Assembly: GCF_000218685.1 (NCBI RefSeq)
Contig: NW_006763290.1
Location: 2,413,855-2,477,854, forward strand
Reading direction: 5' to 3'
Length of the DNA: 64,000 bases
From: Serpula lacrymans var. lacrymans S7.9
Taxonomy: Eukaryota; Basidiomycota; Agaricomycetes; Boletales; Serpulaceae
The translations under genes and the position numbers were made by a program. The notes beneath the pieces were generated by a model. It was not told the DNA's origin. It did not search any database and worked only from the letters and a program-made list of their open reading frames with translations. Position 1 is the stretch's first letter, and each line of letters starts with the position of its first letter. Of the stretch, positions 17,797-59,844 are shown piece by piece.

Positions 17797-18191
17797 GTTC
17801 AAAGTCCAGGTGGAAACACGGGCAGAGAGAAACTAGACGATGTTTTTCATGGACACAAACAAGGAAAAATCGGCACCTATTACTCCCACACTCTGGCCTT
17901 ATCATAGCGGCGCTTTGCACCAGCATAGCGCCGCATAATAAAGCCCTAAAGCCATAACCTTGTCTTATGTAAGCACGCAGAGGATGTGAACTATACCAAC
18001 ACAAACAGTTTGTGGAAACTATATATGAGCCTCTCATATAGTTCCAGGAAACCATACCAAGGTAAGTTAGTTTGTAGAAACTATATTATACTTTTCATAC
18101 AATCATGCATTAATCATGAATCATTGTGAAAAATATCTCCAAAATGTTGCTGAAAGTACTGGTGGATATCCCCCTTCAAGGGGAATCGAAC
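17797..18191. other. Upstream flank of the Ima1-like gene
   Basis: The region holds the presumed promoter of the Ima1-like gene and the border to the gypsy LTR. A pair of near repeats, CAGTTTGTGGAAACTATAT (18005) and TTAGTTTGTAGAAACTATAT (18067), is visible. No gene was recognised. Confidence 0.4.
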
Positions 18192-18605
18192 TGTTACAAT
18201 ACACAATTTTCGGACCTTTGAATTTCATTCTCCACTGTAACTTTCTTTCGTAGTTTTCACACACTGTGCTATGTGGCACTTTCCATTTTGTTCAATCTCC
18301 ACTTTCTCGCGCTATGCTGCTTTTCTTCATTCTTAGCTACAAGTCTCTCACACAGTGGAGCTGACCACACGGGCTGTGCCCTATAACATCATCAGCCACT
18401 GCCTTCATCAACTATATAGTACACATGTATAAATAGTCTGTAGATGTATATAAACCCCAATAGACCAAGGAGACTCCTCAGCGAGTCCTCCTGTTGTTTA
18501 CCCACAACTAACTTGGTCCTATCATAAGGGGTAACCACTCCCACTCACTTCAACTGTAGCTTGTCTGAGTTGTGTGCCAGAGTATACAAACTCTTGGTTG
18601 TTACA
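18192..18605 (+). repeat. LTR, gypsy family C, 5' LTR
   Basis: The 414-bp unit starts TGTTACAATACACAATTTT and ends CTCTTGGTTGTTACA, the TG..CA form of an LTR. It contains a TATATAAACCCC box near 18449. Related copies lie at 30144-30555 and 32996-33395 (minus), 55985-56224 (plus, truncated) and about 46270-46415 (minus, diverged). A gypsy gag follows downstream in the same orientation. Confidence 0.85.
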
Positions 18606-20941: not shown

Positions 20942-21706
20942 TTGGGTAAGCCGAGTCATGCCCATCAAACTGAGCTTAATGACAGGATAAACACTGGTCA
21001 CGTTTATGCCAAGCTCAGATCTTTAGATAAGATTGACAATGACAATGACAAGGTAAAACCTGAGGAAGAGATTAAGAGGCTGGTACCTCTAGAGTACCAT
21101 GACTTCTGGAAAGTCTTTTCAAAACATAAATCAGAGCACTTCCCAGAGGCTAAGCCTTGGGACCATGCTATAGATTTGAAGGACACATTTAAACCTAGAA
21201 AAGGACACATGATTCCCTTCTCTGCTCCAGAAAGAGATGAGGTTTCAAGTTTCATAGATGAACAGCTCAGGAAGGGTTACATCAGACCTTCCAAATGCCC
21301 TATGATGTCCCTGGTATTCTTCATTCCTAAAAAGGATGGTAAGATGCATATTATTATGGACTATTGTTACTTGAATGAGTACACAGTCAAAAATGCGTAT
21401 CCGCTGCCTTTGATCAGTCAGCTAGTAGACAAATTGGCTGGCACCAAGATCTTGACAAAGATGGATCTCAGATGGGGGTACAATAATGTATGCATCAAAG
21501 AAGAAGATGCTTGGAAGGCTGTATTTATGTGCCACCGAGGATCCTTCAAGCCCCTTGTCATGTTGTTTGGGTTGACCAATTCATTGGCAACCTTCCAAAG
21601 CATGATGAACGAGATATGGAAAACTGTGTCATCATTTACATTGATGATTTACTCTGTTGTTACATATCTGTCCAAGCTAATAAGGTTTGAGCCTCATGCA
21701 CTATAG
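20942..21706 (+). pseudogene. Ty3/gypsy reverse transcriptase, frameshifted
   Basis: Fingers and palm read LVPLEYHDFWKVFSKHKSEH, FIDEQLRKGYIRPSKCPM, FFIPKKDGKMHIIMDYCYLN, YPLPLISQLVDKLAGTKIL and KMDLRWGYNNVCIKEED. The catalytic YIDDLL lies in another frame near 21640, so a frameshift falls just before it. Copying of the element's RNA is its family role. Some residues differ from the usual gypsy consensus (MDYCYLN for MDYRKLN), which fits a decayed copy. From 21707 to 22090 the thumb and connection are too decayed to follow. Confidence 0.85.
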
Positions 21707-22090
21707 CTCTCTACCACCACTTCCAGTGGTGGCTGAGAGCCAATTTCCTATTTAGTTATCAGACATTTAACTACTATAGAAATTGTTGATTCACACTTTC
21801 TGGATACCTCAGTCCTCGTACAAGAGACTGAGTATCACTTTGTTACAGATACAAAAACCACATATTCATATTTACAAAGTCAGACGATGAGGCTGAGCAT
21901 GACAAGATTGTGCAACCGTTGAGCAATCTCACTAAAAAGGACATTGTCTGGCACTGAAGTGCCAAAAAACAAGGAGCTTTTGATAAGCTTAAACAGGCAT
22001 TTACAACAGTGCCCATATTAGCATTTCCCAAATTAGACAAAGAGTCCCGGCTTAGAAACCGACTCTTTTGATTTTGCTACTGGGGCTGTT

Positions 22091-22438
22091 TTGTTAATCA
22101 AATGCCCTGACAATCTTTGGAGGCCTTGTGCCTATTTATTACATAGTTTGTTGCCCACAGAGCACAACTATCAAATTTACGACAAGGAGATGCTGGCCAT
22201 CATTAGAGCTCTAGAGCACTGGCAGCACTACTTAGAAGGTGCTAGGCACCAATTTGGAATTTGGACCAATCATAAAAATCTGGAGTATTTTATGACGGCC
22301 CAAGAATTGAACCAAAGACAGGCCCACTATGTGGTATACCTATCAAGGTTTAATTATAAATTAATTCATAAGTCTGGTACTTCTATGGGAAAAGCGGATA
22401 CTTTATCTAGAAGAGGGACCAATGTGTGGAGATACTGA
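22091..22438 (+). pseudogene. Ty3/gypsy RNase H segment
   Basis: The frame contains HNYQIYDKEMLAIIRALEHW, FGIWTNHKNLEYF and GTSMGKADTLSRRG, the standard end of gypsy RNase H. The element then stops abruptly: no integrase or same-strand 3' LTR follows, and at about 22443 it joins an unrelated dispersed gene. Confidence 0.85.
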
Positions 22439-30143: not shown

Positions 30144-30555
30144 TGTTACAACCAAGAGTTTAGTTACTCTGGCGCACAACTCAGACAACGCTGTAAAGGT
30201 AGTAAGGGGAGTGGTTACCCTTAGGATAGGACCAAGTTAGTTGTGGGTAAACAACAGGAGGACTTGCTGAGGAGTCTTCTTGATCTATTGGGTATTTATA
30301 CTAATACAGGTTGTTTGTACATGTGCACTATACAGTTGATGAAGGTAGTGGCTGATGATGTTATGGGGCACAGCCCATGTGACCAGCTCCACTGTGTGAG
30401 ATACTTGTAGCTAAAAATAAAAAAAGGCAGCGCAGTGCAAGAAGGTGGAGTTTGAATAAAATGGAAAGTGCCACCTGGCACAATGTGTGAAAACTACGAA
30501 AGAAAGTTAGAGTAGAGAATGAAATTTAAAGGTCCAAAAATTTTGTATTGTAACA
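30144..30555 (-). repeat. LTR, gypsy family C, 3' LTR of the minus-strand element
   Basis: Complement of the 18.2-kb LTR, with ends TGTTACA and TGTAACA. Directly upstream on the minus strand is a polypurine tract (GAAGGGGGGTAG) and then a chromodomain-integrase gene, so this is a 3' LTR. Confidence 0.87.
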
Positions 30556-31676
30556 CTACCCCCCTTCTAAGGCTCGACTTCCAGGCTCGACCAAATATCA
30601 GAGGTAGCAGTTGAATTTTTGGGCATAGGTTGAAAAAGGGAATTAAAAAGGTTTGAATCCATGCCTCTAAGCTTCCTAGGAGCCAAGGGATTCTTAGAAT
30701 AAAATTCACAAACAGCATTGCGGGAATTGTCCAGATGGGCTTCTGGTTCCCATGTTCTGTCCTTGTCTCCATAGCCCTTCCATAGGACTAGGAACTCTAA
30801 CTTTCCAAGCCTCAAGTGTGCATCCACCGCCCGTTCGACTTCAAATTCTTCTTCACCTTCTTGGGTGACTACAACTGGTCCAGGCCGGTCTACGCGCTGT
30901 CCCAGCAGCAGCCCTTTATAGGGTTTCACACGGCTAATATTGACTGTGGGTACTACTCATTCATTTTGGGAGTTTTACCTCCACTGCATTTGGTTTGATT
31001 TCTTTAATCTGGTAAGGGCTAATCCACTTTTTGGTCAGTTTTCTAGACTGCTGATCTTTTAATTTTAAGTGGTCGGTATCTAACCAGACCTGGTTGCCAA
31101 ACTTGTAGTTAGGGGCCTTAGAGTGTCTACACTCTGCCCTGTTTTTCATCTGCTCTGCAGTTTTGAATAATGCCTTGCTTGTTTGTCTCAGACAGATTTT
31201 ATGTGTTTGACCATAGTTCCCACAGCCTCACTTTTACTTTTTCTAGGTTCTACACCCATTCTAGGGAGGTATGATCTTGTAATCTCAAATAGTGCCTTCC
31301 CTGTAGCTGACAACTGTTTGATATTATAGGAGAACTGGGCTATCTTTAGCTACTTGGCCCTATCTGTCTGCCTATTATTTATAAATATACAGAGGTATTG
31401 GTATTGTTTCAACTCCTGCTGTTTGCAGATGGAACACTGTTGATGATTTAGGTTTGATGCCTAGTATCTGGCAAAGTTCTTTCATGAATTTGCTAGCAAA
31501 TTGAGGTGCCCTATCAGAGATAACTGTTTCTGTTAACCTGTGGATAGACCATAGAAAATCTTTAAATAAGTCTGCCGTACCAGTGGCTGTAATAATTTTA
31601 TTGATGGGAATAAATACCACTTCCTTGGAGAAGCGATCTACTACCACTATTACCGAATCATACAAGATGGATGGCC
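30556..31676 (-). pseudogene. Chromodomain gypsy integrase, 3' part of pol
   Basis: Going downstream on the minus strand: integrase core with YDSVIVVVDRFSKEVVFIP and ISDRAPQF (31665-31480). After that are degraded core sequence and the C-terminal domain with KFGNQVWLDTDHLKLKD and KWISPYQIKEIKPNAVEVKL (31130-30965). A chromodomain follows, with EEFEVERAVDAHLRLGKLEF then LVLWKGYGDKDRTWEPEAHL (30860-30740). Chromodomains on integrases are known to steer chromoviruses toward marked chromatin. The first catalytic aspartate and everything upstream are missing at about 31676; the YHPQTDGQTE motif is degraded to VFHLQTAGVET. Frame breaks separate the three parts. Confidence 0.88.
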
Positions 31677-32170: not shown

Positions 32171-35100
32171 ACTTGCCCCAATTGAGGATGTTGAATTTTG
32201 ATTACCAAGATCAGCATGCAGAATCCAGCAGCACAGAAAGCACATTCTTGAATGAAATGATGGATACTCTTCTGAGAATAGTCACACCTCACCCAAAAGA
32301 GGAGGAAATAGAGAAATATGAAAGCAGACTGAGAAGACAGTCCAAGAAACATGCCTCATATACCAGAACCAACTTGAGAGGTACTTGAAGAAGTGAGCAT
32401 CTTATAGACAAGGCTAAAAGAAGTTATAAAAAATGCTTCACCACTTCCAGAAAAGGTGGAAAGAAGTAGAACAACTATGGAAAAACCAGAAAACTTTGAT
32501 GGAGATAAAACAAAATCAGGCTTTTAAAAAATTCCTTTTACTCCATTTTGAAGATGATCAGGTCTATTTCAAAAAAGACAGAAGAAAACCATCTTTTGTT
32601 TTATCTTTTATGAAGAAAAAAAAGCAGCAGCTTTTCATACAGATTAGCTAGAGAACAGAGTAAATACCCAGTAATTAGGGCTAGATATGAAAGGCACATA
32701 CAGGAGCTAACCTTATTTTGCAAATAAGATGGAAGAACAACTTAAGGACAGTTTTGGAAAGGAGAATGGAAAAAACAAAATTCTGACTCTCGAATAGGGA
32801 GCAAAAACAGCACAAGCTTTTTTTGAAAGGTTTGAAGAAAAAATGAGATAGACTGGTTATACCAGCAGAGGTAATGAAGAGTTCTTGGTATCTTTGTTAT
32901 AATAAAACATGAACAAACCACTTATAGGCAGGATCATCTACGGTGGGCATATCCCTTGCAATCACCAAGAATAAAAACATGAACTTGTAACAACCAAGAG
33001 TTTGTTACTCTGGCGCACAACTCAGACAAAGCTATTAAGGTAGTGAGGGGAGTGGTTACCCTTAGGATAGGACCGAGTTAGTTGTGGGTAAACAACAGGA
33101 GAACTCGCTGAGGAGTCTCCTTGATCTATTGGGGTATATATACTACTACAGTTTGTTTGTACATATGTACTGTACAGTTGATGGAGGCAGTGGCTGATGA
33201 TGTCATGGGGCACAGCCCGTGTGACCAGCTCCACTGTGTGAGAGACTTGTAGCTAAAATAAAAAAAAGGCAGTGCAGCGTGAGAATGTGGAGTTTGAACA
33301 AAATGGAAAATGCTGCATGGCAGTGTGTGAAAACTACAGAAGAAAGTTGAAGAGGAGAATGAAATTTAAAGGTCCAAAAATTTTGTATTGTAACAGAACT
33401 TATCCAGATTGACAATATCTGGAGAGAAAGGGAAAAGGAGAAGAAGGTGAGTAGATGACTGGCAAAGGAAAACAGCTGGAATGAAGTGAAAAGAGAGTTG
33501 AAGCTTGCTAGGATGGTACATGATATACCTATATTGGGAGTGGGGGAAAATGGAAGTAGATAAAGCAAAGTTTCACACTGAAGGTTAGTATTACCGGTGT
33601 GGAGAAAAAGAACACAAAAGCTTTGAATGCAAAGAAACAAGAGAAAAAAAGCCTCAATTGAAAATTAGGAAGCTTCTAGAAAAATGACAAGTGAAGAGAG
33701 AGAAGGTCTCAGAAAACCAAATTCAAAATTGTTTTTCTATTCTTCCTGTTGAAACCTCTAAATTACCAGAAGGTCATATAACAGAGAACAAAAACAATTT
33801 ACAGTTTAATAACAAAGAAAGAAAAACAAACTGAATTCAAGGATGCAAAACAAATAAGGACATATCATCCAAAGTGCAAATGGAAGGAGAATCATTGGAA
33901 ATCACAGCAAAAGCAACAAACACTGAGATACCCATACCCGATGTGGCATGCCCTATGGAGAAAAGTGCAGTAGAGATTATGGGAGACAGGTCAGGAACCC
34001 CTATACAAAACCTAGAAAAAACAACTGCCTAGACTCCAAAATTGGTAGCAGAAAGGCTTTGAGATCAAAATAAAGAACAATTGACCAGAATCTTGAATGC
34101 CTGGACACATCCCAAAAGGAGCAAAGAAGTCACAAAAGATATGATCAAAGAAATTAACGAACTGTAAATTAAAGATGTAACCCTAGTAGTTGTAGAAATA
34201 AGTTGCCCCAAAAAATACATCAGAGGAACATAACACAATCAAATGAATATCACATGTAGATGAACAACCCTAGATACTCAATAATTAACAACAATTGAAG
34301 CATTTTTGGATAGCAGATGCACAGGGAGTTTTATCAACCCCAAATTTGCGACAGATTAACAATACAAAAGGAAAAAAATACCGAGATCAATCCCTGTCTA
34401 TAATGCAGACAGAACTCTAAACAAAGACAAATCAATTAAAGAATTTGTAGAGTTACTATTAAAAATCAACAGCCATTTTGAATGAATCCACTTTTCCACC
34501 ACTAATCTAGGCAATGGAAGAATGTTCTTAGGACAGAAATGGCTAAAGAAACACAACCCAATAATTAACTAGAAGGAATCACAGATATCCATTGAAAGAT
34601 GTCCCGAAGAATATAAACCAAGGATCCAACTCTCTGACTCAGAAAGAATTGATTTATCAGAAGAAAATCAATTGATCCAAGTCAATCTGATAGACACCAT
34701 AATAAACAATCAATATTACTGCATAAAAGCCCAAGGCAAAACAGTATGATGATTAGCTAAAGCCACAAGTAAAGATAATAAAAAATGTGGATTTGAAGAA
34801 AAATTGTCCCCAGACACCTACATGAATACAAAGACATATTTGATAAAAAGGTGTTTGATATTTTACCAGAAAGAATAGAATTATGCATTTGAACTAATAC
34901 CAGGAAACCATTCCCTTGATTGCAATATTTACCTATTAGCCTTAGTTAATCAAGAATAATTAGATGCATTCCTAAAAGAGAATCTTGAATCAAGACAGAT
35001 CAGATCATCCAAAGCTCAATTTTCATCTCCATTTTTTTTCATTAAGAAGAAAGACAGAAAATTCCAACCAGTGTAGGATTACCAAAGGCTAAATAAAATC

Positions 35101-35735: not shown

Positions 35736-35793
35736 GGGTGTGCAAAAGCTATGCAGAAAATGATTCTTATTTTGAAATGGCAACCTCGGAACC

Positions 35794-36500
35794 ATGACCA
35801 CAGCACACAATACATCTGCATGTCCAGTTCTCACTGGACCCAACAATTTTCAGATATGGAAACTCCAGATCATCTCAAAGCTACGTTGGGAAAAAGTTCT
35901 CCAGGTTGTTACTGGAGAGGAGCTTAAGCCCTCACCAGGAAAACCTACCTCCTCGGAGGATCCTGAGATCACCTGGATACTTAAGGATGAGAAGGCACAT
36001 GAAATCATCCAGGACCACATCTCTGATGCCCTCCTAATAAGGACTGGAGACCTCACCAGCTCCAAAGAGTTATTTGATAAACTTGTCTCACTCCATCAGA
36101 CGTCCAACATTGCCTCAGCCTTCTATTCATTCCAGCAACTCACCAAATTGTCGTGGGATACGACATCACCTATCCAGGACCACATTGCAAAAATCTGGAC
36201 AATTGATTCACACCTCTCCGGAATGAAACTAGGAGTTGATACCAAACTCATGGCCTTTGCTCTTCTCCAATCTCTCCCATGCACTCCTGAATGGCAAATA
36301 TTTCAGTCATTGGTAATCAACACGATTGAAGAAAATAAACTTATCTTTGATGCAGTTGAGATCCGGATCACTGCAGAAGTTGCACGACAGTCAGGGAAGG
36401 CCCCTGGAAGTTCCGAATCAGCACTCAAACCTGAGGAGAAGTGATGTGACTTCCACAAAGCCAAATCACATAACACCTTGGAGTGTTGAACACTTCAGTC
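35794..36500 (+). pseudogene. Ty1/copia gag (family B)
   Basis: Frame from MTTAHNTSACPVLTGPNNFQ with the copia gag signature LTGPNNFQIWKLQIISKL. It continues through SKELFDKLVSLHQTSN, KLSWDTTSPIQDHIAKIW and LLQSLPCTPEWQIFQSLV. It stops at 36444; the expected zinc knuckle follows in frame as CDFHKAKSHNTLEC, with His in place of the second Cys and a TGA directly after, where Trp is usual. The protein would form the particle shell; here it is truncated. Confidence 0.87.
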
Positions 36501-39500
36501 AGCTGGAAAAGGTCAAAAGAAGAAGGGAAAGGAAAGACACAAGGATAAAGGAAAAGAGAAGGAAAAGGCAAATACGGCGGAGCAATCATCTGGATCTGAC
36601 TCCGAGGAGGAACAGAGTCATATTGCATTGGATCATGTACATATTTCCAAGCCCCTTGCTAAACACATTCAAGCTTACCTTGTGTTGGAACCCAATAAGA
36701 CCAAAACAACAATCATCATTGACTCCGGAGCAACATCCCACATGGTCCCTCACCGCTCCTGGTTTGAGCCAGCAACATACCATGTTCTGCATCCTCTGAG
36801 GACAATCAGTTTTGGGGATGAATCCTGTGTAAATGCCATTGGAATTGGAACAGTAATCCTACAAGCAACTGTTGGCAAAAATGACTACAGTATTGCACTT
36901 TCAAATGTCTTACTTGTGCCAAACTTTACTTTAGCAGTCGTCTCTGTCCACAAATTGTCCAAAACAGGGTTGTCAACACTTTTTCCAGCAGGGTCAAATG
37001 CTTGTGAAGTTCGGAAAAAGGAGGAACTTATCCTCACTGCCTTACACAAGCAAGGACTTTATCACATCCAAGCAAAACCCAAAATCAACCCGGAGTCAGC
37101 TTTTGCAACAGTAGATGTAAATTTATTGCACACATTGGAATAGACCACTTGCAACAAATTGTTACAAAAGGACAGCTCCAGGACATAGACACCCTTACCG
37201 GAACCCCAGAGTTTTGTGAACCTTGTGCTTTAGGAAAGATGAACTCATTTGGGAGAAGAACACTTCACACCACTGTACACAGAATTCCTCCGGAGCAATG
37301 GGGGAGGAGAATATACTGGCAATGCATTCAAAAATCAACTCCGAGAAGATGGTGTCATCCAAAAAACTACAGCTGCAGATACTCCGGAACAAAATGGCAT
37401 TGCAGAACACATGAATCAGACATTGGCTACATTAGCAACCACTATGCTCTATGATTCCAAGCTCCCAAAGTCATTTTGGGTAGATGCCATGCAAACAGCT
37501 GCATATATCACAGCACGCAGCCCAGCATCAGGACTCCATGGGAAGACCCCATATGAAGTACTGTCTAAAAGGAGAGTTGATCCAACTTTGTTTCGCCCTT
37601 TCGGATGCCAAGAATATGCCTTGATTCCGATATACAAAAGGCAAGGGAAGTTTTACTCCAAGGGGCGCAAAGCCATAATGATTGGCTACACACATGGAAA
37701 GCAAGCCTACAAACTCCTAGACACTGAAAAACGGACTGTGTTTTCCAGTCGGCATGTCATATTCAATGAATCCGGAAAGGTACAAAAAGATGACACTGCT
37801 CCCTGGAACACAGACACTAGCACAGATCAGTGGGAGGGACTCATTCCAGAGAATGCTCACTATCCAGACCAAAAAACATTGGAGGAGGATGATCCTGACC
37901 CTCTGATCCGAGATCCAAATGAATTGCAAATGGAACCACATCTCCAAGGAGATGTTCCACAAGCAATGGAACCATATCAGCATGAAGATGTTCCGAGAGC
38001 AGTGGGAGCACCTGATCAGCTAAAACACCCTCCACAACAGTCTCTACAACCAAGGCCTGAACACTGGCCATCTTCAGAACGGAAAGCCAAAGTAGAGTTA
38101 CAGTCAGTGGGAGGACAGCCCCTCAACATACAGCCAGCTGATGTGGAAAAAGTCCGAATTCAGCTAGACAGCCTGTCCATTGGATCAGCTTCTGGAAAGG
38201 CATACAACACCTCCGAGGAGTAATTCAACACCTCCGAGGAGTAATTCAACACCTTCAGGAGTGAGTGGGGCAACAAATACACAAATGCTGCTACTCCCTG
38301 GAGTACCTGCACAAGTCCCTAAAAGAGCAGTCATGCCTGCTGAAGTCCTAGGAGTACGCAGAAGCAGTCACCAGACCCGTCCTGCAGACAAAAACCAAGA
38401 TTATCAAAGGACTCTAGATGAGGAACAGTCTCGAAAAGAGCAGCATGACAACTCCATGGAGAAACCTAACACTCCTGAGGTTCATGAAGAAACATCTGAT
38501 ACAGAGGAGACATTCTTTGCTGGAATAGCAAGTACTGGTCCATCTAACACAGACCTTCCAAGGACACTAAAGGAAGCCGTATCACGTCCGGATGGTGAAT
38601 TATGGAAGTCTGCCTTGGAGGAGGAACTCCTAAGTCTCGATACTAATGCAGTATATGATACTGTTCCACTTCCGAAGGGAGTAAAACCCATCACATCAAA
38701 ACCTGTGTTCCGGATCAAGTTTGATCAAAACGGAAACATTGAGAGATACAAACTCCGGATTGTTGCACAAGGTTTTACTCAAAGGGAGGGGATTGATTAC
38801 CAGGAGGTTTTTGCTCCGGTTGCAAACTTAGAGACAATCCGAATTATTCTAGCCCTGGCAGCAAAGTACAACCTAGAACTTGATCAAATGGACATATCCA
38901 CAGCTTATCTCAATGGAGAACTTGAAGAAGAACTGTACATGCTTCCTCCAGGGGGTGTTCCTATCCAACCTGGATACCGCTGGAGATTGAAGAAATCCAT
39001 CTACGGATTAAAACAAGCTGGTCATACATGGAACAAAACCTTTGATTGCAAGCTCCAGGAGTTCGGTTTCACAAGACTAAATGCAGAAATATGTCTCTAT
39101 GTATTCCGGGACAACAAACAAATATGCTTTGTTGTTGTCTATGTAGATGACCTCCTCCTAGGAGCTTCATCCTGAAAATTCATGGATATCACAAAAGCCA
39201 AACTCGAATCCATATTCAAAATGCGGGACCTTGGAGAAGCAAAATACATCCTCAGAATAGAAATCCAACGTGATCGTTCAAACAAAACAATATTCCTGTT
39301 GCGGCGCCAATACATTGACACAGTCCTGGAGCGTACTGGAATGAAGAACTGCAAATCAGTATGGACACCAATGGCCCATGGATCAAAACTCCTTGTAAAT
39401 GCTCCAGGGGAAGATATTGTGCAACACAGGATGCATATTGAAGGGCGTCAAGTGTCATACCTCTCAATTGTAGGCTCCCTCATGTATGCCATGCTCGGAA

Positions 39501-39571
39501 CCCGCCCAGACATTGCCTACGTTGTTGGAATACTAAGCAGGCATAGCTCAGCTCCAAGGAGCCATCACTGG
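36500..39571 (+). pseudogene. Ty1/copia pol (family B), internally deleted and truncated
   Basis: Protease: IIIDSGATSHMVPHRSW (36710). Integrase zinc remnant: CEPCALGKMNSFGRR (37210). The core resumes directly with GGGEYTGNAFKNQLRED and DTPEQNGIAEHMNQTLATLA, so about 60 residues with the first catalytic Asp are deleted and the second Asp is also lost. A long acidic linker follows. RT reads FRIKFDQNGNIERYKLRIVA, EVFAPVANLETIRIILALAA, DISTAYLNGELEEELYMLPP, SIYGLKQAGHTWNKTFDCKL and the active site YVDDLLLG (39140). Frame breaks fall near 37145, 37250 and 38200, with a TGA near 39173. Coding ends at SSAPRSHHW (39571); RNase H and 3' LTR are missing. The 58.5-59.8-kb fragment holds the missing part from another copy. 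Confidence 0.88.
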
Positions 39572-39584
39572 GTGAGACCTAATT

Positions 39585-39680
39585 GTAACAGGAAAAATGT
39601 CTTCAATATTGGGGTGCCCTCCAGGAGACCTAAGACCAACCCTGGGAAAAACATTTTTGATATTGGGGTGCCATGCAAGA
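39585..39680 (+). repeat. About 50-bp minisatellite-like repeat, locus 1
   Basis: Two tandem units share the core ATATTGGGGTGCC, followed by a C/A-rich (CTCCAGGAGACCTAA or ATGCAAGAGGCCTAA) tail. The same units, three in a row, occur at 50661-50800. Here they sit exactly between a broken copia and a broken gypsy element. Confidence 0.78.
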
Positions 39681-42186
39681 GGCCTAATGGCCACCATCTT
39701 TACGAAACTGGATCTACGTTGGGGATACAACAACGTAAGGATAAAAGAAGGAGACAAATGGAAAGCTGCGTTTAAAACCAGCAAAGGAGTGTTCGAACCA
39801 ACGGTCATGTTCTTTGGCATGTGCAACTCACCGGCAACATTCCAAAGGCTGATGAACCACAAATTCAAAGACTACATCAATGAAGGTTGGATGATCATAT
39901 ACATGGATGACATCCTCATCTTTGACACCAACATCGAAAGACTCCAAATCCGAACGAAACAGGTTCTACAAAGACTACGCAATAACAACCTATTCCTAAA
40001 ACTAGAAAAATGCACCTTCGAAGCAGAAACCATTGAATACTTGGGAATGATTGTTTCCCACAATCAGGTATTGATGGATCCAGCCAAACTTGCTGGGATC
40101 CGCTATTGGCCAATCCCGAAAGACACCAAAGGCGTAAGGAAGTTCTTAGGTTATGGAAACTTCTACAGGAAGTTTATCGGTCATTACTCTGACCTTTCCA
40201 GACCCTTGAATGCCTTACTAGAAAAGGATAGGAAGTAGAACTGGACCCAAACTGAAGACAACACTTTCAAATTGATGAAACAAAAATTCCTCGAATCCCC
40301 CGTAACACAAATTCCCAACTCCTCAAAACCGTCAAAGATTGCTGCAGACGCCAGCAAACACGCCACAGGAGCTGTATTAATGCAACCCGATGACCAAGGA
40401 CAATGGCACCCATGTGCATTTTTCTCCAAAACTCCATCCCCCGCTGAAAAGAACTACCAGATCTACGACAAGGAGTTATTAGTGGTAATGAGAGCTTTAA
40501 AAGAGTGGAAACACTTACTTTTGGGAAGCCCCCACACAATCCAAATCCTGACAGATCACAAGAACCTGACGTACTGGCAAGAAGCCAGGAAACTCACACC
40601 GCGACAAAGAAAATGGCAGATGGGATTGTCACAATACAAGTACACCTTGGAGCACGTACCAGGAACCCACATGGTGGTACCCGATGCACTCTCAAGAAGA
40701 CCTGATTTATACGTCAAAACAGAAGGAGATGACAATGACACACCAATGATACCCGCTTCAGCGTTTCTGTATCACACACGAACAATTAAAAACACAATCG
40801 AGCAAGCCATGCTCACAAACAATAATTCTCCAGGAAGAACAAAAAAAGACGATTGGAGAAAAGAAGAAGGACAGTTCTTTTATCAGAATAAATTACTGAT
40901 TGACGAAGTAGAAGAACAAAAGACGATCATCAAAGATCACCACAATTCCCTGTCCGCAGGACACCCAGGAAGGCTCAAAACCTACCAGTTGATCAAAAAG
41001 GCCTATTGGTGGCCAGGAATGATGAAACAAGTGGAAGAATACGTGAAAGGATGTGCAACTTGTCAACAAGCAAAAGTAAACATGCATCCCACCACTGTAC
41101 CATTAATCCCAAACCAGACCCCAAAAACCACTGAACCGATGAAGTACCTATCCGTAGACTTCATAACTGATTTACCAGAATCTTCAGGATACGACAGTAT
41201 AATGGTCGTGGTAGACCAAGGACTTAGTAAGGGGGTAATCCTCTCACCTTGTCATAAAACCATCGACGTGCTCAAAACCGCACGAATCTTTCACAATTCC
41301 ATCTTCAAACGATTCGGATTGCACGATAAACTCATATCCGACAGGGGACCGCAGTTCACCTCTGAAGTATCCAAAGAACTCCACAAACTCCTGAACATTG
41401 AAACCGCACTCTCCTCTGCGTATCATCCCCAGACGGATGGACAAACAGAACAATCCAATCAAGAACTGGAGATCTACCTCCGCATATTTTGCCAGAACCA
41501 ACCACACAGCTGGGCAAAATACCTTACAACCGCCGAATTCTGTCACAACCAAAGACCACACTCCACAAACAACCAATCACCATTCTACCTCCTCATGGGA
41601 TATGAACCCCGAGGAATCCCGACTAAACACAGATCCACGAATATCCCATCAGTGGAAAAACAATTATCTGAACTGCTTAGGGCAAGGGAAAACACCCTAA
41701 AAGCACACAAACTTGTGAGAAAAGATGATGAAACAAAACAACGGAAAGTTCACGCGATTCTCCGAAGGACAAAAGGTGTGGTTAGAGAACACCAACCTGC
41801 GAGAAAAAGCTACCAAATACAAGAAGTTCAACATGAAACGCATTGGACCTTTTTATCCAAGAAAAGATTTCCCCAGTAAACTACCAACTATCCCTGCCTC
41901 CCCATTGGAGGATACACAACATTTTCCACACATCCCTTCTCACCCCGTATATGGAGACCAATACTCACGGCCCGAACTTTATCCGACCACCACCTGACCT
42001 TATCAACGGAGAAGAAGAATACGAAGTAGAAAGTATTCTTAAACACAAACGCTGGAAACGCGGGCACCGCTACCTGATTAAATAGCGCCATTACCCTCAT
42101 TCCAAAAACTCATGGGAACCGGAAGAACATTTAACCAATGCTGCGGAGATACTGGAAGCCTATAAAAAGGACCACAAGCTGCGTTG
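39680..42186 (+). pseudogene. Chromodomain Ty3/gypsy pol, 5' truncated
   Basis: RT starts mid-palm: KLDLRWGYNNVRIKEGDKWK, FFGMCNSPATFQRLMN, active site IIYMDDILIF (39900). RNase H: KIAADASKHATGAVLMQPDD, YDKELLVVMRALKEWKHLLL, ILTDHKNLTYW. Integrase zinc: HHNSLSAGHPGRLKTYQLI..CATCQQAK (40940-41070). Core: SVDFITDLPESSGYDS, LISDRGPQFTSEV, YHPQTDGQTEQSNQE, all three catalytic residues present. C-terminal GPF region at 41770-41860 after a frameshift. Chromodomain [20 protein letters not shown] then YLIK*RHYPHSKNSWEPEEH (42010-42120), with TGG changed to TAG. A stop also follows LLEKDRK at 40238. Otherwise well preserved. Confidence 0.92.
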
Positions 42187-42242
42187 AAGAGACAACCACC
42201 CCACTACCAACAATCTGCTCTCTCTCAACACAAAAAAAAAAC

Positions 42243-43526
42243 ATGTCTACTTCCCACTCTACCGGCTTCCCTATCACCACTTATTCCGTACCCGGCAAAG
42301 CCAACATGCTAGCCAATGAACAAGTGTCCTTTGCCCGAGGGCAACAACACAACCAAGCTGACGTCTCTGACGCTATAGAGCTAATGTCAGCCAAAAACGC
42401 CTAAGTCTATTTATTTTATGAAACAGAAAAATGCTGCCCCCATGCGTACCACGCACTCTCTTCCATGCATAACTTCCTTGCCATAGACCTTGTAGCTGAT
42501 GAACTGCTAAAAGCCATAGACTCACTACATTCATAGGAAAACGAGCATTTGCAGCTCTGCAGTCAGGACTCGAGTATTTGTCGGGTACTCCGGATGGAAA
42601 AATTAGTTTTGTAATCTTTGGAACAACACTTGAGGATGAACTCCTTGAATGGGCAGACGGACACGGCAAAGGCATATTTGGAATTAGGCGGGAGGACCTT
42701 GCTAACAGAGACGTGCATGCGGATAGAGTGAGACAGCTATATGCGTACTCCTCCACCCGGTTTGTCCCACCAGTCCCTATTGTACCCAGAACAGACCAGT
42801 GTTACCCCGGAGCGCACCTACCACATCGTCACCCAACATCCTCCGCCCACCCAGTCGGTGGAAAAATATATTCCAACCATCCCAACCAGCCTGATCTTGC
42901 AAGAGTCGAGCCCCTCCAGTCCCTGTCCCATTGGGTCAAACCCAAAACCACTGTCTCCCCCGTCATCTCCACCTCGACCAGTACCAAACACCCAAACCTG
43001 TCATCTGACGAACCGGCGAGGAGCCCGACGCGGCCAACAAGAAGTGATACTCCAGATCCCCGCCGCCAGAACTCCATCGGAACGGCAATCTCGTATGTCA
43101 AAGGGTCAGAAAGGCAGTCCGCCTGGCGCAACGCGCAGGCCTGAGACTGGTTCTCCCTCCAACCCAATCAATGTAGATGATGATGCAGCCATGATCGATC
43201 AGTTGTACGCAGGAACGTACACCTTAGGAGATGATGATCCAACCACTCCCCAATCCGACACCTCATCCAACACCCGACGAAAATACCACAAAGGTGTTCG
43301 TAACAACGCTCCATACTGCCAATACTGCGGTTGGAGCGATCATCGCACATACTATTGCGAAGCCTACTATTGCCCCGACTGTGACCGTCGTGCACCGGGA
43401 CATAGTTTTAATTGGTGTCCCATCCGCAGGGAAGACGAGGATAGGATTCTGATGGAAAGATTACATGGAGATGTCAGCTACGACAACAGTTACAATATTG
43501 ATGGCGAAGGTACTGAATTTTGGTGA
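42243..43526 (+). pseudogene. Accessory 3' ORF of the gypsy element with two zinc knuckles
   Basis: Between pol and the 3' LTR lies a third ORF that would encode roughly 430 residues, now in three frames. The start is MSTSHSTGFPITTYSVPGKA (ATG 42243) with a stop at 42404. The middle (42545-42790) has GLEYLSGTPDGKISFVIFGT and LLEWADGHGKGIFGIRREDL. After a frameshift near 42800 comes a Pro/Ser-rich basic linker, then acidic sequence, then CQYCGWSDHRTYYC (CX2CX4HX4C) and CPDCDRRAPGHSFNWC (CX2CX6HX4C) near 43320-43420. Zinc knuckles of this kind bind RNA in gag proteins. No signal peptide or membrane span is visible, so it is not env-like. Whether it is a displaced gag or a new accessory protein cannot be told, because the element's 5' end is missing. 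Confidence 0.75.
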
Positions 43527-43537
43527 AACTTGGAGCA

Positions 43538-43550
43538 AGTAAGGGGGTAA
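43538..43550 (+). promoter_or_regulatory. Polypurine tract before LTR-D
   Basis: AGTAAGGGGGTAA lies directly before the TGTTA start of the LTR, the position from which plus-strand DNA synthesis is primed in retroelements. Confidence 0.7.
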
Positions 43551-43964
43551 TGTTATGATCTCTATTGGACATTTAAGGACTACTCATTTCTTTTTACTCA
43601 TCGGTTATACCATCAGACCAAAGACTCATTTCCTTCACGTACACTTCCGTTCCTCTCGCATTTGCAGTACATATTATAGTATTTAGTCCTCAACGGATGG
43701 ACCTGCCCTAGATAGGACCTAACTCCTTTCACTGATTCATTTTCATTATAAATACCATGTAATAGCAGTAGTATTCTCTAATACAATTCTACGCAGTTTA
43801 CGCTTACAAAGCTAGACTCCTAAGATCAGACTTCTACTCAGAAGAAGACCAACTCTCGTTGGAAGAACTCCACTCAGAACTATGTTCTCGAACTTGTCTT
43901 TGGATAAGTCTCTTTACAAACCTCGACGAACCCTCAGACTTTGTTAAGCACTTTGTGCGTAACA
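43551..43964 (+). repeat. LTR, gypsy family D, 3' LTR
   Basis: A 414-bp unit with perfect inverted ends TGTTA..TAACA. It contains a TATAAATACC box near 43748 and follows the polypurine tract. No second copy is in the window, so boundaries rest on end structure alone. Confidence 0.82.
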
Positions 43965-43995: not shown

Positions 43996-44757
43996 CTACC
44001 CATGTTCAATAGGATTAAGATAAGGAGACTGTGCAGGCCACACCATAGTTCTAAACTCCTCCTCATCTAGCCACTCCTTGACCTTTTTGCAGGAATGCTC
44101 GGGGTCATTGCCTTGCTGAAAGATGATTTCAGGAGGATTGAAACCATAATACTGTAGGGTGTTTAGCAGCTCATCCTTAAAAATCTGAAGGTCAAGGTCC
44201 CCATCCATCCTACCATCAATTCTAGCAGCATACCCAACTCCCTCCCAAGTCATACAGCCCCAGATTATCATGGAACCTCCTCCAGACTTGACAGTTCCCT
44301 GTACCAATCTATCACTGAGCCCCTCACCTGGCTTTTTTCCACACCCACTTGTGTCCATCTGACCCCAGGCGATTGATTTTGGTCTCATCAGACCATACAA
44401 CCTTCTTCCAATCCTTTTCCACTTGACCACAGCCTTCATGCCAGCATTTTTCAAGTGCTGGCAGACAGTGTTTGGGGAGAGAGGTTGGTTGATGATGTTG
44501 GTAAGAGCTTTGGTGATCTGGACAGTATTTTCTGCCTTGCGAGTGGAGATGAGATGCATGGCATGGCAGACATTGGCAGGAGAAAGCTTAGATGGACGAC
44601 CTCCAACAGACTTTTGGAGCTTAGAACACTCCTTGGAGCAAAGTCTAGAGATGGTAGAGACATGGACACCAGTGGTAGAGGCAAATGAGTGAGCAGTTTG
44701 ACCTGCATCAAGGAGGTTAATAATACAGTTCTTTTGAGCAGGAGAGAGGGATTTCAT
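43996..44757 (-). pseudogene. Tc1/mariner transposase, inactivated
   Basis: From MKSLSPAQKNCIINLLDAGQ: helix-turn-helix DNA-binding region with GVHVSTISRLCSKECSKL and GGRPSKLSP, then SPNTVCQHLKNAGMKAVVK. About 30 residues expected next are missing, and the WSDETKINRLGSDGHKWVW block is present only in another frame. The catalytic domain resumes at KKPGEGLSDRLVQGTVKSGG, SMIIWGCMTWEGVGYAARID and ends at SPYLNPIEH. The second catalytic Asp is Gly (FQQGNDPEH for FQQDNDPKH), and the C-terminus is cut after the third catalytic Glu by the gypsy element to its left. Cut-and-paste enzyme by family, certainly inactive here. Inverted repeats not identified. Confidence 0.9.
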
Positions 44758-45173
44758 GATGATGGTGGCTGAGAATACAGAAGCGTGCAAACTTTTTTAA
44801 ACTCAGAAACAATGGCTATACATGTATTTTTGTTTGTGGGACCAAACAAAGCCAGATATTCTATCATATTATTGTATCTCTGCTTCCAACTCAAAAGTAA
44901 AAAAACTGTTACAATGGTATTGCTCTTTTGAAATGGACATATCTTCACAGCTGCTGGGCCAAATCATATAACCTAGGAACCATTTTGTAGCCAAGACCAA
45001 GTACTTTTGTCAACCCCACCAAAGCTGAGCAAAGTTCCTACACCTGTTGGCAGTGCACTTTGCACACCACATTTAGGCCAAACATTGCAATAGTTTTTGC
45101 ACTGTACATGCTGAATACCGCCATCAAGCCCCAAAAGACTTGGGAAATCTCTTCAAGCTGGTAAATCTGACAA

Positions 45174-54899: not shown

Positions 54900-55984
54900 C
54901 ATCCCAGCTCTTGCTTAAAAACCTGGGGTCCATTATACTATGTAATAGTAGTCCAGTAATCCCTGGCTTTGTAGCAATCCACTACTCCCCAGGCTTTGTA
55001 GTAATATTCCCGGGGTTTTACTCACTCCTGGTATTCAACAACAGTGTGCCAGGTTTCACCCTTTTCATTGAGCTACTACACATAGCTACAAACTTGCAAC
55101 AGTGATATACCCAGATCAAGACAGTTCTGCTACTACTCCACATTTATAACAGCATAACATATTCTCTCACCACTGCAAGACAAAACCCCATGATTCAAAA
55201 ACTTCCCACTCAATGCAGCAATAGTCCCACTATCACATTTGAAGCAAAAAACCACCCCAGTGAGCTCTAATAGCCTCATTATTGTCTCCAATGCTTGCCA
55301 ACATATTATATAAATTCAACTCTAATGGTGACTGAGCTGACAAATGACATCAAAACTAGATATATAACATAAATGCGACTATATTTACTGCCTGCTGGTG
55401 CTGTGCTGACAGGCAGCCCAACATGTTGGGTGGCGTTGATGGATGTTAAAATCTGATTTAATGCTGAGTAGTGGTGAGTGGAGGGAAAATTGTTGGCAAT
55501 ATTATTTGACTTACATCACATCACATCAACATTATCCTCCATAATAACATTATGCAAGTCTGCAGGTTCTTGGGTCCCGGGTACTGATAGGACGGCCGTG
55601 CTCACTCAGGCTCAGTATAGCATCTGTAACAAGCTTTGTAAATCACAACAAATTAGATGATGTTAGACTTACATATTTGTGGAACCTGGTCAGCAGTAAA
55701 GTTGTCCTCCATCTGAGTGAACATGATCGTTGGCAGGCCTACAAAGAAATACTCTGAGTTGCCACTGAAGTAGAAAGTGGGAAATCTGACATTCAGACAT
55801 AATTTCTGTCGGATTTTTGCAAAATACACAGAGCTGGAGAATTCCTTTGAGAAAATGACATAGTGCTGCTTTCCATGTTACTGTACTAGCAATGGGGGCA
55901 AAAAGCTTAATTAACGGCAATATTGACACTAAGTCTGTTGTATGCCAAGTCGCTGCATAAATTTTGTGAATTCTTTATTTTTAG
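54900..55984. other. Spacer, no supported gene
   Basis: No recognisable protein. A minus-strand frame at 55690-55929 has a few protein-like words (SEYFFVGLPTIMFTQMEDNF in a neighbouring frame) but no family match and no clean exon structure. 55100-55460 is AT-rich with no gene. Confidence 0.35.
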
Positions 55985-56224
55985 GTACAAGTATCTCACA
56001 CAGTGGAGCTGGTCACACGAGCCATCATTAACTGTATAGTACACAAGTACAAACAACCTGTAGTAGTATATATACCCCAATAGATCAAGGAGACTCCTCA
56101 GCGAGTCCTTTTGTTGTTTACCCACAACTAACTTGGTCCTATCTTAAGGGGTAACCACTCCCACTCACTTCACTACTGCTTGTCTGAGTTGTGCGCCAGA
56201 GTATACAAACTCTTGGTTGTTACA
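55985..56224 (+). repeat. LTR family C, 5'-truncated copy
   Basis: Matches 18340-18605 from CTCACACAGTGGAGCTG through CCACAACTAACTTGGTCCTA to the terminal CTCTTGGTTGTTACA. The first third of the LTR is absent. No gag follows. Confidence 0.85.
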
Positions 56225-56289
56225 AACACTGGTACCACATGTTATGTACACCCATTGATATCAATCCCAACACAATACTACTATGCTTG

Positions 56290-57649: not shown

Positions 57650-58550
57650 AAGGGCATTCTCTCTATCTTGTTGGCTTGATCTAAGCTGTGGGGGATTATG
57701 CTCAACAGGAATAGTGAGCAGACAACTGTTATAAATGTACATGCTGTACACACATGTAGGCTTTTTACTGTTATGGAATTTAAACCAAGGAGCTTGCTTG
57801 CTTACACATCATCTTTTTAAGGCAATGACCATAGATGGTCGGTCCCTACTTTGTACTTAATGTTACAATTGATCTCTATTGCACACCTCTTGATCAATGT
57901 TTGGTATCTTTGGATTCAAGATTAGTTGTGCATTTGTAGATAGTTAATTAACCACCCTGACCTTGAGCTTGATCAACCAAATTCAGTGGCTAATGCGCTA
58001 ATGCCAATGCTGTATCCAGCATATAAAACCTAGGTCAGTTTGCATGTACTAGAAATTAATTAGCCCCGATTTATTAGTCAAATGCTAGAGACCATACCCT
58101 CAAGCTCACCAAGCTGTTTAGAATTCAAAATGCTGTTCAACACCATCCTGCGGCCCTATCTTTGACAGATCTGCAAGCAAGAAGTCCTATCCAACGGACT
58201 GTTCCTTCACTTTGATGCTAAAGCAGGCAACCTGTGGCCTTGGTTGTGGTAAGTCCAACCACAGTATGGCCTAGAGCTACATCATTCAAACTCTATACCT
58301 TCTTTCCTCGGCCCATCTTACTTATGTGCCATGAACTCCACCAGTGCTTCTTTTCCAATGAGGACAGGCATGCTGACCAGTCCCATAGGCAAAGCCAAAG
58401 GTTGTACATTACCATCAAACATGGTGTACTCACTCCTGGATCAAATGGTTCCTGGTGCATCAAACAAATAAAGCCAGGACAGTGCATCAGGAAGAATGTT
58501 ATGAGTCCAGGTAAGTACTCCACTCAAAAGTCAAACTCTCTGAGCTTGGA
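57650..58550. other. Spacer ending at a copia truncation junction
   Basis: No gene recognised in 57650-58230. A plus-strand frame at 58234-58554 has no family features, and its end runs into copia RT sequence at about 58548, which marks the junction. Confidence 0.35.
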
Positions 58551-59844
58551 TTGATTACCAGGAGGTTTTTGCTCTGGTTGCAAACTTAGAGTCAATCTGA
58601 ATTATTCTAGCCCTGGCAGCAAAGTACGACCTAGAACATGATCAAATAGACATATCCACAGCTTACCTCAATGGAGAACTTGAAGAAAAACTGTACATAC
58701 TTCCTCTAGGGGGTGTTCCTATCTAACCTGGATACTGCTGGAGGTTGGTTGAAGAGATCCATCTATGCATTAAAACAAGCTGGTCATACATGGAACAAAA
58801 CTTTTGATTGCAAACTCCAGGAGCTTGGTTTCACAAGACGAAATGCAGAAACATGTCTTTATGTATTCCAGGACAACGGACAAATATGTTTTGTTGTTGT
58901 CTATGTAGATGACCTCCTCCTAGGAGCTTTATTCCCAAAATTCATGGATATCACAAAAGCCAAACTTGAATCCATATTTAAAATGTGGGACCTTGGAGAA
59001 GCAAAATACATACTTGGAATAGAAATCTGACGTGATTGTTCAAACAAAACAATCTCCCTATTGCAATATCAATATATTGACACAGTCCTGGAACATACTG
59101 TAATGAAGAACTGCAAACCAGTATGGATCAAAACTCCTCGCAAATGCTCCAGGAGAAGATATTGTAGAACACAAGATGCATATCAAAGGGTGTCAAGTAT
59201 CATACCTCTCAATTGTAGGCTCCCTCATGTATGCCATACTCGAAACCCACCCAGACATTGCCTATGTTGTTGGAATGTTAAGCAGACACAGCTCAGCTCT
59301 AAGGAGCCATCACTGGGAAGCTGCCAAACATGTTTTCCAATATCTGAAAGCAACCAGGGACATAGAACTATGTTATTATGGCACAAATATTTCCATGGAC
59401 ATGTATTTCTATGGATATTCAGATGTAGATTGGTCTGGAGACCCAGACACGTCCTAATCAACATCAGGGTTTGTTTTTATCACTATTTGAGGAGCAATCT
59501 CCTGGACAAGCAAAAGACAAAGTATGGTAGCTTTATCTTCCACGGAGTCAAAGTATGTTGTACTGAGCAATGCTGGACAACACCTTGCATGGCTTCAGAC
59601 ATTTTTTGAAGAGATTGGACATGCTCAAAATGGACCTACAACATTGTACAAGATCCGCAGTTCCGTGCTCACACAAAATATATTCAATAGAAATATCATT
59701 TTATCCAAGATGACTTAGTATCAAAGGGAGAGGCAGTAATCAGATATGTTCAATCGGGAGATATGGTTGCCAACATTCTTACTAAACTGCTCACTCACAA
59801 GAAACACTGGAAATTCTCTAAAGCTATGGTACTATGGTTACACT
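58548..59844 (+). pseudogene. Ty1/copia RT and RNase H (family B), 3' part
   Basis: Reads IDYQEVFALVANLESI, DISTAYLNGELEEKLYILPL, SIYALKQAGHTWNKTFDCKL, active site YVDDLLLG (58905), SYLSIVGSLMYAILETHPDI, then the RNase H part SKRQSMVALSSTESKYVVLS and a degraded tail (ANILTK.. near 59780). It is clearly a diverged copy of the element at 35.5-39.6 kb and shows the 3' end that copy has lost. Stops (for example TAA near 58720 and TGA near 59030) and a deletion around 59130 inactivate it. Upstream gag, protease and integrase are missing. Confidence 0.87.

Follow-up and report, generated by a model that had tools for sequence, protein, structure and literature searches.

Our data show that, in a retrotransposon family of the dry-rot fungus Serpula lacrymans, the middle segment of an ORF located behind pol is selected in the -1 frame. 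The copy of this ORF (hereafter ORF3) that we analyzed lies in a 64,000-nt stretch of strain S7.9 DNA (contig NW_006763290.1, positions 2,413,855 to 2,477,854; hereafter the window), and it is a decayed copy of a third gene belonging to its retrotransposon. Judging from the sequence features described below, we lean towards a third gene that is expressed from a spliced RNA and specifies a zinc-knuckle accessory protein together with an overlapping second product.

ORF3 and its host element in the window

All features of the host element lie on the forward strand. ORF3 spans 42243..43526 (427 codons plus stop in the frame of its ATG, hereafter frame 0), and the ATG at 42243, which is present in all 38 aligned copies, is located 55 nt past the pol stop position (42185-42187). 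An initial annotation of this DNA had described an ATG-led ORF of roughly 430 codons that ends in two zinc knuckles and is followed by a polypurine tract and an LTR, and each of these elements was recovered: the knuckle pair at 43317..43418, the polypurine tract at 43534..43550, directly 5' of the LTR, and the 3' LTR, with sequence ends TGTTA...GTAACA, at 43551..43964. A second copy of this LTR was not found within the window. Upstream, a pol remnant (39690..42187) carries RT from mid-domain, RNase H, integrase, a Tf2-1-like SH3 domain, and a chromodomain, all in broken frames, and the element is 5'-truncated inside RT, near 39690. A probable self-priming sequence was located at 43780..43790, near the start of R, where relatives match the complement of the primer-binding site (PBS).

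ORF3 comprises an N-terminal segment (42243..42519), which shows frame-0 constraint and is predicted, with low confidence, to be helical in part, then a P/S/T-rich linker, and finally the two knuckles within a C-terminal segment (43143..43526) that is again constrained in frame 0. The same annotation had read the ORF as running through three frames with two lesions, which did not hold up. Compared with the relative L012 over the entire ORF, the window copy contains no frame-changing indel and a single 3-nt insertion, in frame, that 10 of the 18 other compared copies also carry; its damage consists of four in-frame stops (at 42402, 42534, 42612, and 42729). The overlapping -1 frame (hereafter frame 2; 42503..43144, 213 codons open in the window without an ATG, and constrained at ~42520-42942) is native and not damage, since it is stop-free in 28/38 copies and under selection.

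Relatives form a complete mobile unit

The C-terminal piece of ORF3 has 87 matching stretches in its own genome (42.6 Mb, 29 contigs), many of them within open frames that measure about 461 codons between stops. Of the 20 loci of 10 kb each that we retrieved, 19 belong to the same family (family 1), and the remaining locus, L028, represents a diverged sister family. An LTR pair brackets ORF3 in 12 of the 19 family-1 loci; in the remaining 7, no LTR pair was found within the 10-kb stretch. The family-1 LTRs end in TGTTAC...GTAACA, and inspection of the ends of 11 elements by eye showed perfect 5-bp target duplications at 9 of them, with none at L013 and L015. The fuller relatives share the order LTR, gag with its own CCHC knuckle, slippery site, pol with chromodomain, ORF3, polypurine tract, and LTR, so that copies carry both a 5' gag and a 3' ORF3 inside the LTRs, as the initial annotation had suggested checking. 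Locations of ORF3 outside the LTRs, or in a separate insertion between pol and the LTR, were looked for and not seen. A foreign insertion was rejected because ORF3 lies between the LTRs of a unit that is itself flanked by target-site duplications.

Long open frames occur in several copies, for example 1131 codons for pol and 460 for ORF3 (counted from an in-frame ATG upstream) in L012, and 432 codons for gag and 1169 for pol in L024. Family-1 pol encodes protease, RT, RNase H, integrase, a Tf2-1-like SH3 domain, and a chromodomain. In L012, the Pfam domains follow the order RVP_2, RVT_1, RT_RNaseH, Integrase_H2C2, and rve (the last under its cut-off), with Chromo (PF00385) at residues 1077-1126 of 1131 (E=2e-14), and the best solved-structure match of pol is the Ty3 Gag-Pol polyprotein. 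Family 1 is therefore a chromovirus-type Ty3/gypsy family of S. lacrymans, having the pol order PR-RT-RH-IN, a chromodomain at the integrase C-terminus, and TG...CA LTRs with target duplication.

The 5' gag, which is separate from ORF3 and conserved among 8 aligned copies, contains a Retrotrans_gag-like region and a zf-CCHC match, both just below the Pfam cut-offs. In all five copies viewed (L024, L025, L016, L020, and L027), the slippery heptamer GGGTTTT lies immediately 5' of the gag stop (3873-3879 in L024), with pol in the -1 frame. In addition, 137 codons in the gag frame precede its first ATG (L024:2584-2994, forward strand, and equivalents), and this extension is under in-frame purifying selection in 11 copies (39/73 changes synonymous, expected 24.2, p=2.9e-4), which would imply either that translation starts at a codon other than AUG or that a 5' leader exon is spliced on.

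An 11-nt complement between the PBS region and the start of R, located 34 nt past a TATA box, was found in the LTRs of 5 of 12 family-1 elements (L012, L016, L017, L024, and L025). The complement measures 9 nt in L011, and the other six elements gave background-length matches only. L028 has a different 11-mer complement between the PBS region and R, and TATAAAT was not found there. This complementarity between the PBS region and the LTR points to self-priming, a mechanism described previously (PMC2864245).

Selection changes frame within ORF3

With the aim of locating constraint by reading frame, we classed internal-branch changes on a tree of the 38 copies in each frame and compared them with the terminal-branch mutation spectrum, including CpG; given the common ancestry of the copies and the use of an estimated spectrum, the p-values are guides and not exact. 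Four pol segments from 13 copies served as a positive control and were constrained in the pol frame only (p=4.5e-13 to 1.5e-19), and the final pol stretch 5' of ORF3 gave p=0.011 in its own frame. The 99 nt ahead of the ATG, used as a negative control, are open in many copies and lack frame-0 constraint (12/41 synonymous, expected 11.8, p=0.53), such that frame-0 constraint begins at the ORF3 ATG.

Within ORF3, nt 1-277 are constrained in frame 0 (49/99 internal changes synonymous, expected 32.3, p=3.8e-4). Constraint passes from frame 0 to frame 2 at approximately nt 270-290, and nt 278-700 show 90/148 synonymous changes in frame 2 (expected 51.8, p=1.4e-10) and 34/148 in frame 0 (expected 47.6, p=0.99). 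No clear frame was assigned to nt 701-900 (frame 0, p=0.099), and the C-terminal segment, at nt 901-1281, is strongly constrained in frame 0 (81/138 synonymous, expected 42.7, p=1.5e-11). The pattern persists when CpG-context changes are excluded (p=3.6e-7, 3.4e-8, and 6.7e-16 for nt 1-277, 278-700, and 901-1281, respectively), with nt 701-900 then giving p=0.011 in frame 0. The frame-2 segment includes a stretch, nt 421-560, with no significant signal in any frame (frame 2, p=0.29 for nt 421-490 and 0.15 for nt 491-560). When both frames were classed jointly across nt 278-700, no added frame-0 constraint emerged (observed/expected 0.58 for NN and 0.68 for SN). RNA structure is an unlikely source of the frame-2 signal because that signal has a 3-base period. 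We also observed the heptamer CCCAAAA in frame 0 at nt 699-705 (window 42941-42947) in 27/38 copies, at the place where frame-2 constraint ends.

The distribution of stops follows the same lines. Most family-1 copies keep frame 2 open over about 214 codons; the ATG frame, which is longer and was scored along its full extent, is stop-free in 14/38 copies as read in alignment columns, the same reading that gave 28/38 for frame 2. Across nt 278-900, the 35 copies without gaps together contain 35 stops in frame 0 and 10 in frame 2, compared with ~10 per copy in frame 1, and stop-free copies number 16/35 and 25/35 for frames 0 and 2, respectively. An ATG is absent from frame 2 in 11 of the 15 loci whose frame-2 ORF was listed, and occurs early in L019 and L026 and late in L022 and L024. 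Since frame 2 lacks a conserved ATG, it must be entered from elsewhere.

The length of frame 2 exceeds what frame-0 codons explain. When the frame-0 codons were shuffled synonymously, frame 2 came out at least as long as observed in 0/1000 trials for L012, 0/1000 for L009, and 2/1000 for L019, and in 36/1000 and 28/1000 trials for L023 and L016, in which frame 2 is cut short. In the converse shuffle, which kept the frame-2 protein, an open frame 0 arose with P 0.03-0.05 in four copies and with P 0.11 and 0.20 in two copies carrying one stop.

The other frame is better conserved in a sister family

The sister family has roughly 20 copies in the same genome, of which 14 were compared (one match to each query). 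In frame 0, the alignment of L028 to family 1 starts at ORF3 residue 19 and extends past nt 490; identity is about 28-33% in long stretches and, varying by copy, 33-49% over all or part of nt 262-492. In an alignment guided by frame 0, identity between L028 and L012 at the three codon positions is 0.66, 0.63, and 0.49 for nt 278-490, and 0.52, 0.57, and 0.33 for nt 1-277. Over this evolutionary distance, frame 0 has the appearance of the coding frame, and identity at third positions is raised.

For comparison among the sister copies themselves, we took a frame-0 peptide of 77 residues and a frame-2 peptide of 87 residues, encoded by overlapping, not identical, nucleotides. Identity to L028 was higher for the frame-0 peptide in 13/14 copies, eight of which gave 74-82% in frame 0 vs 60-64% in frame 2; the exception, C3 near 655.9 kb, gave 88 vs 91. 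In 11/14 copies, the match overlaps a run of >140 open codons in frame 2, matches without stops number 4/14 in frame 2 and 7/14 in frame 0, and L028 itself has two frame-2 stops close to the switch point. Frame 2 is thus shown as a coding frame in family 1 only. By eye, L028 also contains a ~0.6-kb LTR-like insert (about 7300-7950) between the ORF3 middle and its zinc knuckles.

Zinc knuckles, predicted folds, and homologs

The first knuckle fits the CCHC pattern CX2CX4HX4C and the second is CX2CX6HX4C. All eight metal ligands are intact in 34/38 copies, and L028 has the identical knuckle spacing; the Pfam zinc matches to ORF3 fall far below cut-off. The motif suggests that the ORF3 protein is probably nucleic-acid-binding, and it is the knuckle motif on which an RNA-binding role would be based. 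Structure predictions were of too low confidence to give a fold, with mean pLDDT 36.5 for frame-0 models (5 sequences) and 30.5 for frame-2 gene models (6 sequences); the frame-0 models contain predicted helices at residues 38-168, parts of which reach pLDDT of about 50-66. No membrane span was found in six ORF3 proteins, whose highest 19-residue hydropathy values are 0.82-1.54.

A search of the PDB with an ORF3 profile returned nothing at E<=10. Protein searches yielded 11, 13, and 27 Serpula proteins (three overlapping sets), and no homolog outside Serpula was listed by this word-based search (shared 5-residue words), which may miss distant relatives and which, in two of three runs, scored the best-sharing candidates only. 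Among the literature matches listed, no published account of this ORF appeared at the level of titles and the beginnings of abstracts.

A proposed route of expression

A candidate intron at 42386..42519 would, if removed, join frame 0 to frame 2. Its GTCAG donor-like site lies at ORF3 nt 144 (GT in 100% of aligned copies with letters there), and a CTGAY branch-like site is followed by a CATAG acceptor-like sequence ending at nt 277 (AG in 97% of copies). The donor, GTCAGC, is a weak match to the fungal consensus. Public gene models at these loci vary: P0005, P0012, and P0013 read as if joining the donor at nt 144 to the acceptor at nt 277, and P0013 terminates at the frame-2 stop, P0002 and P0003 keep to frame 0 throughout, and P0006 and P0010 join frames 0, 2, and 0. 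The candidate intron itself retains some frame-0 constraint (25/55 synonymous, expected 18.0, p=0.03), and therefore its removal cannot be constant. A -1 ribosomal frameshift at this first switch was rejected, as no slippery heptamer of the form X XXY YYZ in frame 0 near nt 258-300 is common to at least three copies.

We postulate that a subgenomic RNA, probably a spliced one, serves to express ORF3. If left unspliced across 42386-42519, this RNA would yield the 427-residue zinc-knuckle protein, and splicing there would yield a second product with the same N-terminus that continues into the overlapping frame. Alternative splicing is favored because of the splice-like sites at the switch, the spliced-looking gene models, and the lack of a shared slippery heptamer there. 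The knuckle protein may bind the element's own RNA (or cDNA) and, given its knuckles and the analogy with the CERV protein of Cer1, which serves RNA export, it could act as an accessory factor in export, packaging, or chaperoning. The initial idea of an accessory nucleic-acid-binding protein is supported to the extent that sequence allows, ORF3 being conserved, selected, placed inside the LTRs, and equipped with two knuckles.

This preferred reading has evidence against it: within family 1, nt 278-700 lack frame-0 constraint, the sister family conserves the ATG frame better in 13 of its 14 copies, and L028 has frame-2 stops near the switch. The first of these would fit a single protein read 0-2-0, through two introns or through -1 and +1 frameshifts, with the full-length frame-0 ORF being accidental. 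The selected path across ORF3 does run 0-2-0, P0006 and P0010 are models of just such a protein, and for its pol the element does possess a -1 slippery heptamer. We nevertheless regard a single 0-2-0 protein as unlikely: the switch from 0 to 2 has no such heptamer in frame 0, many weak donor-acceptor pairs fit the second intron and no single convincing one was found, the frame-2 protein predicts an open frame 0 in the middle somewhat less often than is observed, and the sister family conserves frame 0 across nt 262-492. Less probable again are two separate overlapping genes, namely the frame-0 ORF3 and a frame-2 gene that takes its start from a remote 5' exon joined by splicing to the 42519 acceptor, in the manner of retroviral subgenomic RNAs. 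A 5' donor for such an exon was not found; the arrangement would nonetheless suit a frame 2 that has no conserved ATG and terminates at its own stop, and the selected, ATG-less gag extension of 137 codons hints at a 5' leader exon.

The two remaining alternatives concern the identity of the protein. The initial annotation had offered a displaced gag as one possibility, and a displaced or duplicated gag would share the order of a helical segment followed by knuckles, but we reject it as very improbable, since fuller copies hold a separate 5' gag with its own zf-CCHC region and ORF3 gave no gag-domain match. Moreover, the ORF3 knuckles are tandem and include CX2CX6HX4C, as against the single gag knuckle. 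An env-like protein, for which position alone speaks, has almost no probability and was likewise rejected: none of the six proteins has a membrane-span-like stretch, their hydropathy peaking at 1.54, which bears out the membrane-span part of the earlier argument against env.

Comparison with known systems

Tf1/Tf2-type fungal chromoviruses have a chromodomain integrase and an LTR-derived self-priming sequence. Family 1 resembles them in its chromodomain integrase with Tf2-1-like SH3 and in the LTR-derived self-priming sequence. To our knowledge, Tf1/Tf2 encode gag-pol as a single ORF and lack a third gene, whereas family 1 has gag and pol in separate frames with GGGTTTT, and ORF3 added.

A close counterpart by description is CERV of Cer1, a Ty3-family element of Caenorhabditis elegans; CERV is encoded in part behind pol, by a spliced mRNA, and is required for gRNA export (PMC10309623). 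Like ORF3, it is an extra non-env ORF between pol and the 3' LTR, it has no obvious homology outside the host genus, it neighbors a gag with CCHC fingers of its own, and it contains a Cys-rich loop, possibly a zinc finger that binds RNA (PMC10309623). The two differ in that the possible finger of CERV is C4 and those of ORF3 are CCHC, and in that the spliced mRNA and export need of CERV are known whereas ORF3 is known from sequence; the portion of that account available to us makes no mention of an overlapping selected frame (PMC10309623).

Additional ORFs in plant LTR retrotransposons likewise form a conserved extra coding region between pol and the 3' LTR (PMC7264820), with a suspected regulatory or nucleic-acid-binding role, as for TRP28 of Retand (PMC7264820, PMC11963269). 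Retand differs in its plant host, its antisense ORFs, its other domain type, and in not being a chromovirus (PMC11963269). Bdelloid rotifer LTR elements have family-specific ORF3s said to be expressed from spliced messages, but these are of env, GDSL, DEDDy, coiled-coil, or transmembrane types, and the word "zinc" is absent from the text consulted on them (PMC5408684). Among fungi, Boty-like LTR retrotransposons have an additional gene, brtn, but in antisense (cited in PMC7264820).

A third ORF behind pol is thus already known as a kind; a zinc-knuckle third ORF with a selected overlapping frame in a fungal chromovirus appears to be new. Our findings suggest that fungal retrotransposons can carry retrovirus-like accessory genes. 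Accessory genes are regarded as a mark of complex retroviruses. More tentatively, and with somewhat less confidence than we place in a spliced third gene, we propose that this fungal LTR retrotransposon may carry an accessory module in a tat/rev-style layout of two overlapping frames, without env. One frame would specify an RNA-binding factor with zinc knuckles and the other an overprinted product in the -1 frame, and the two sister families would differ in which frame is selected. Equally tentative is the proposal that the overprinted product, having no conserved start, would be made via alternative splicing or recoding. If true, retrovirus-like gene layouts arise in env-less, purely intracellular elements too, and dozens of natural copies within the single 42.6-Mb genome of a wood-decay fungus would provide a testable case. 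There is also a practical warning, in that public gene models at these loci disagree on the frame, and a second frame that resembles damage can be native.

Other repeats in the window

The TE content of Serpula is surprisingly high for its genome size, mainly Gypsy and Copia (PMC4905642), and several further repeats were observed around the element. A degraded copia-type element with a Retrotran_gag_2 match (35776-39775) abuts the truncated gypsy copy, and its 38790-39572 portion is repeated at 58548-59317 with 88% identity. Just 3' of the LTR, a 266-codon open frame on the reverse strand (43996-44796) has, by eye, the look of a Tc1/mariner-type transposase. Other gypsy pol remnants, with RT/RNase H and integrase, lie at 21449-22414 and 31414-31662. 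Finally, a dispersed repeat of ~410 nt, with copies 81-90% identical, occurs at 30144-30555, 32986-33396, 18191-18605 (inverted), and 55971-56225, and perhaps represents solo LTRs of another family.
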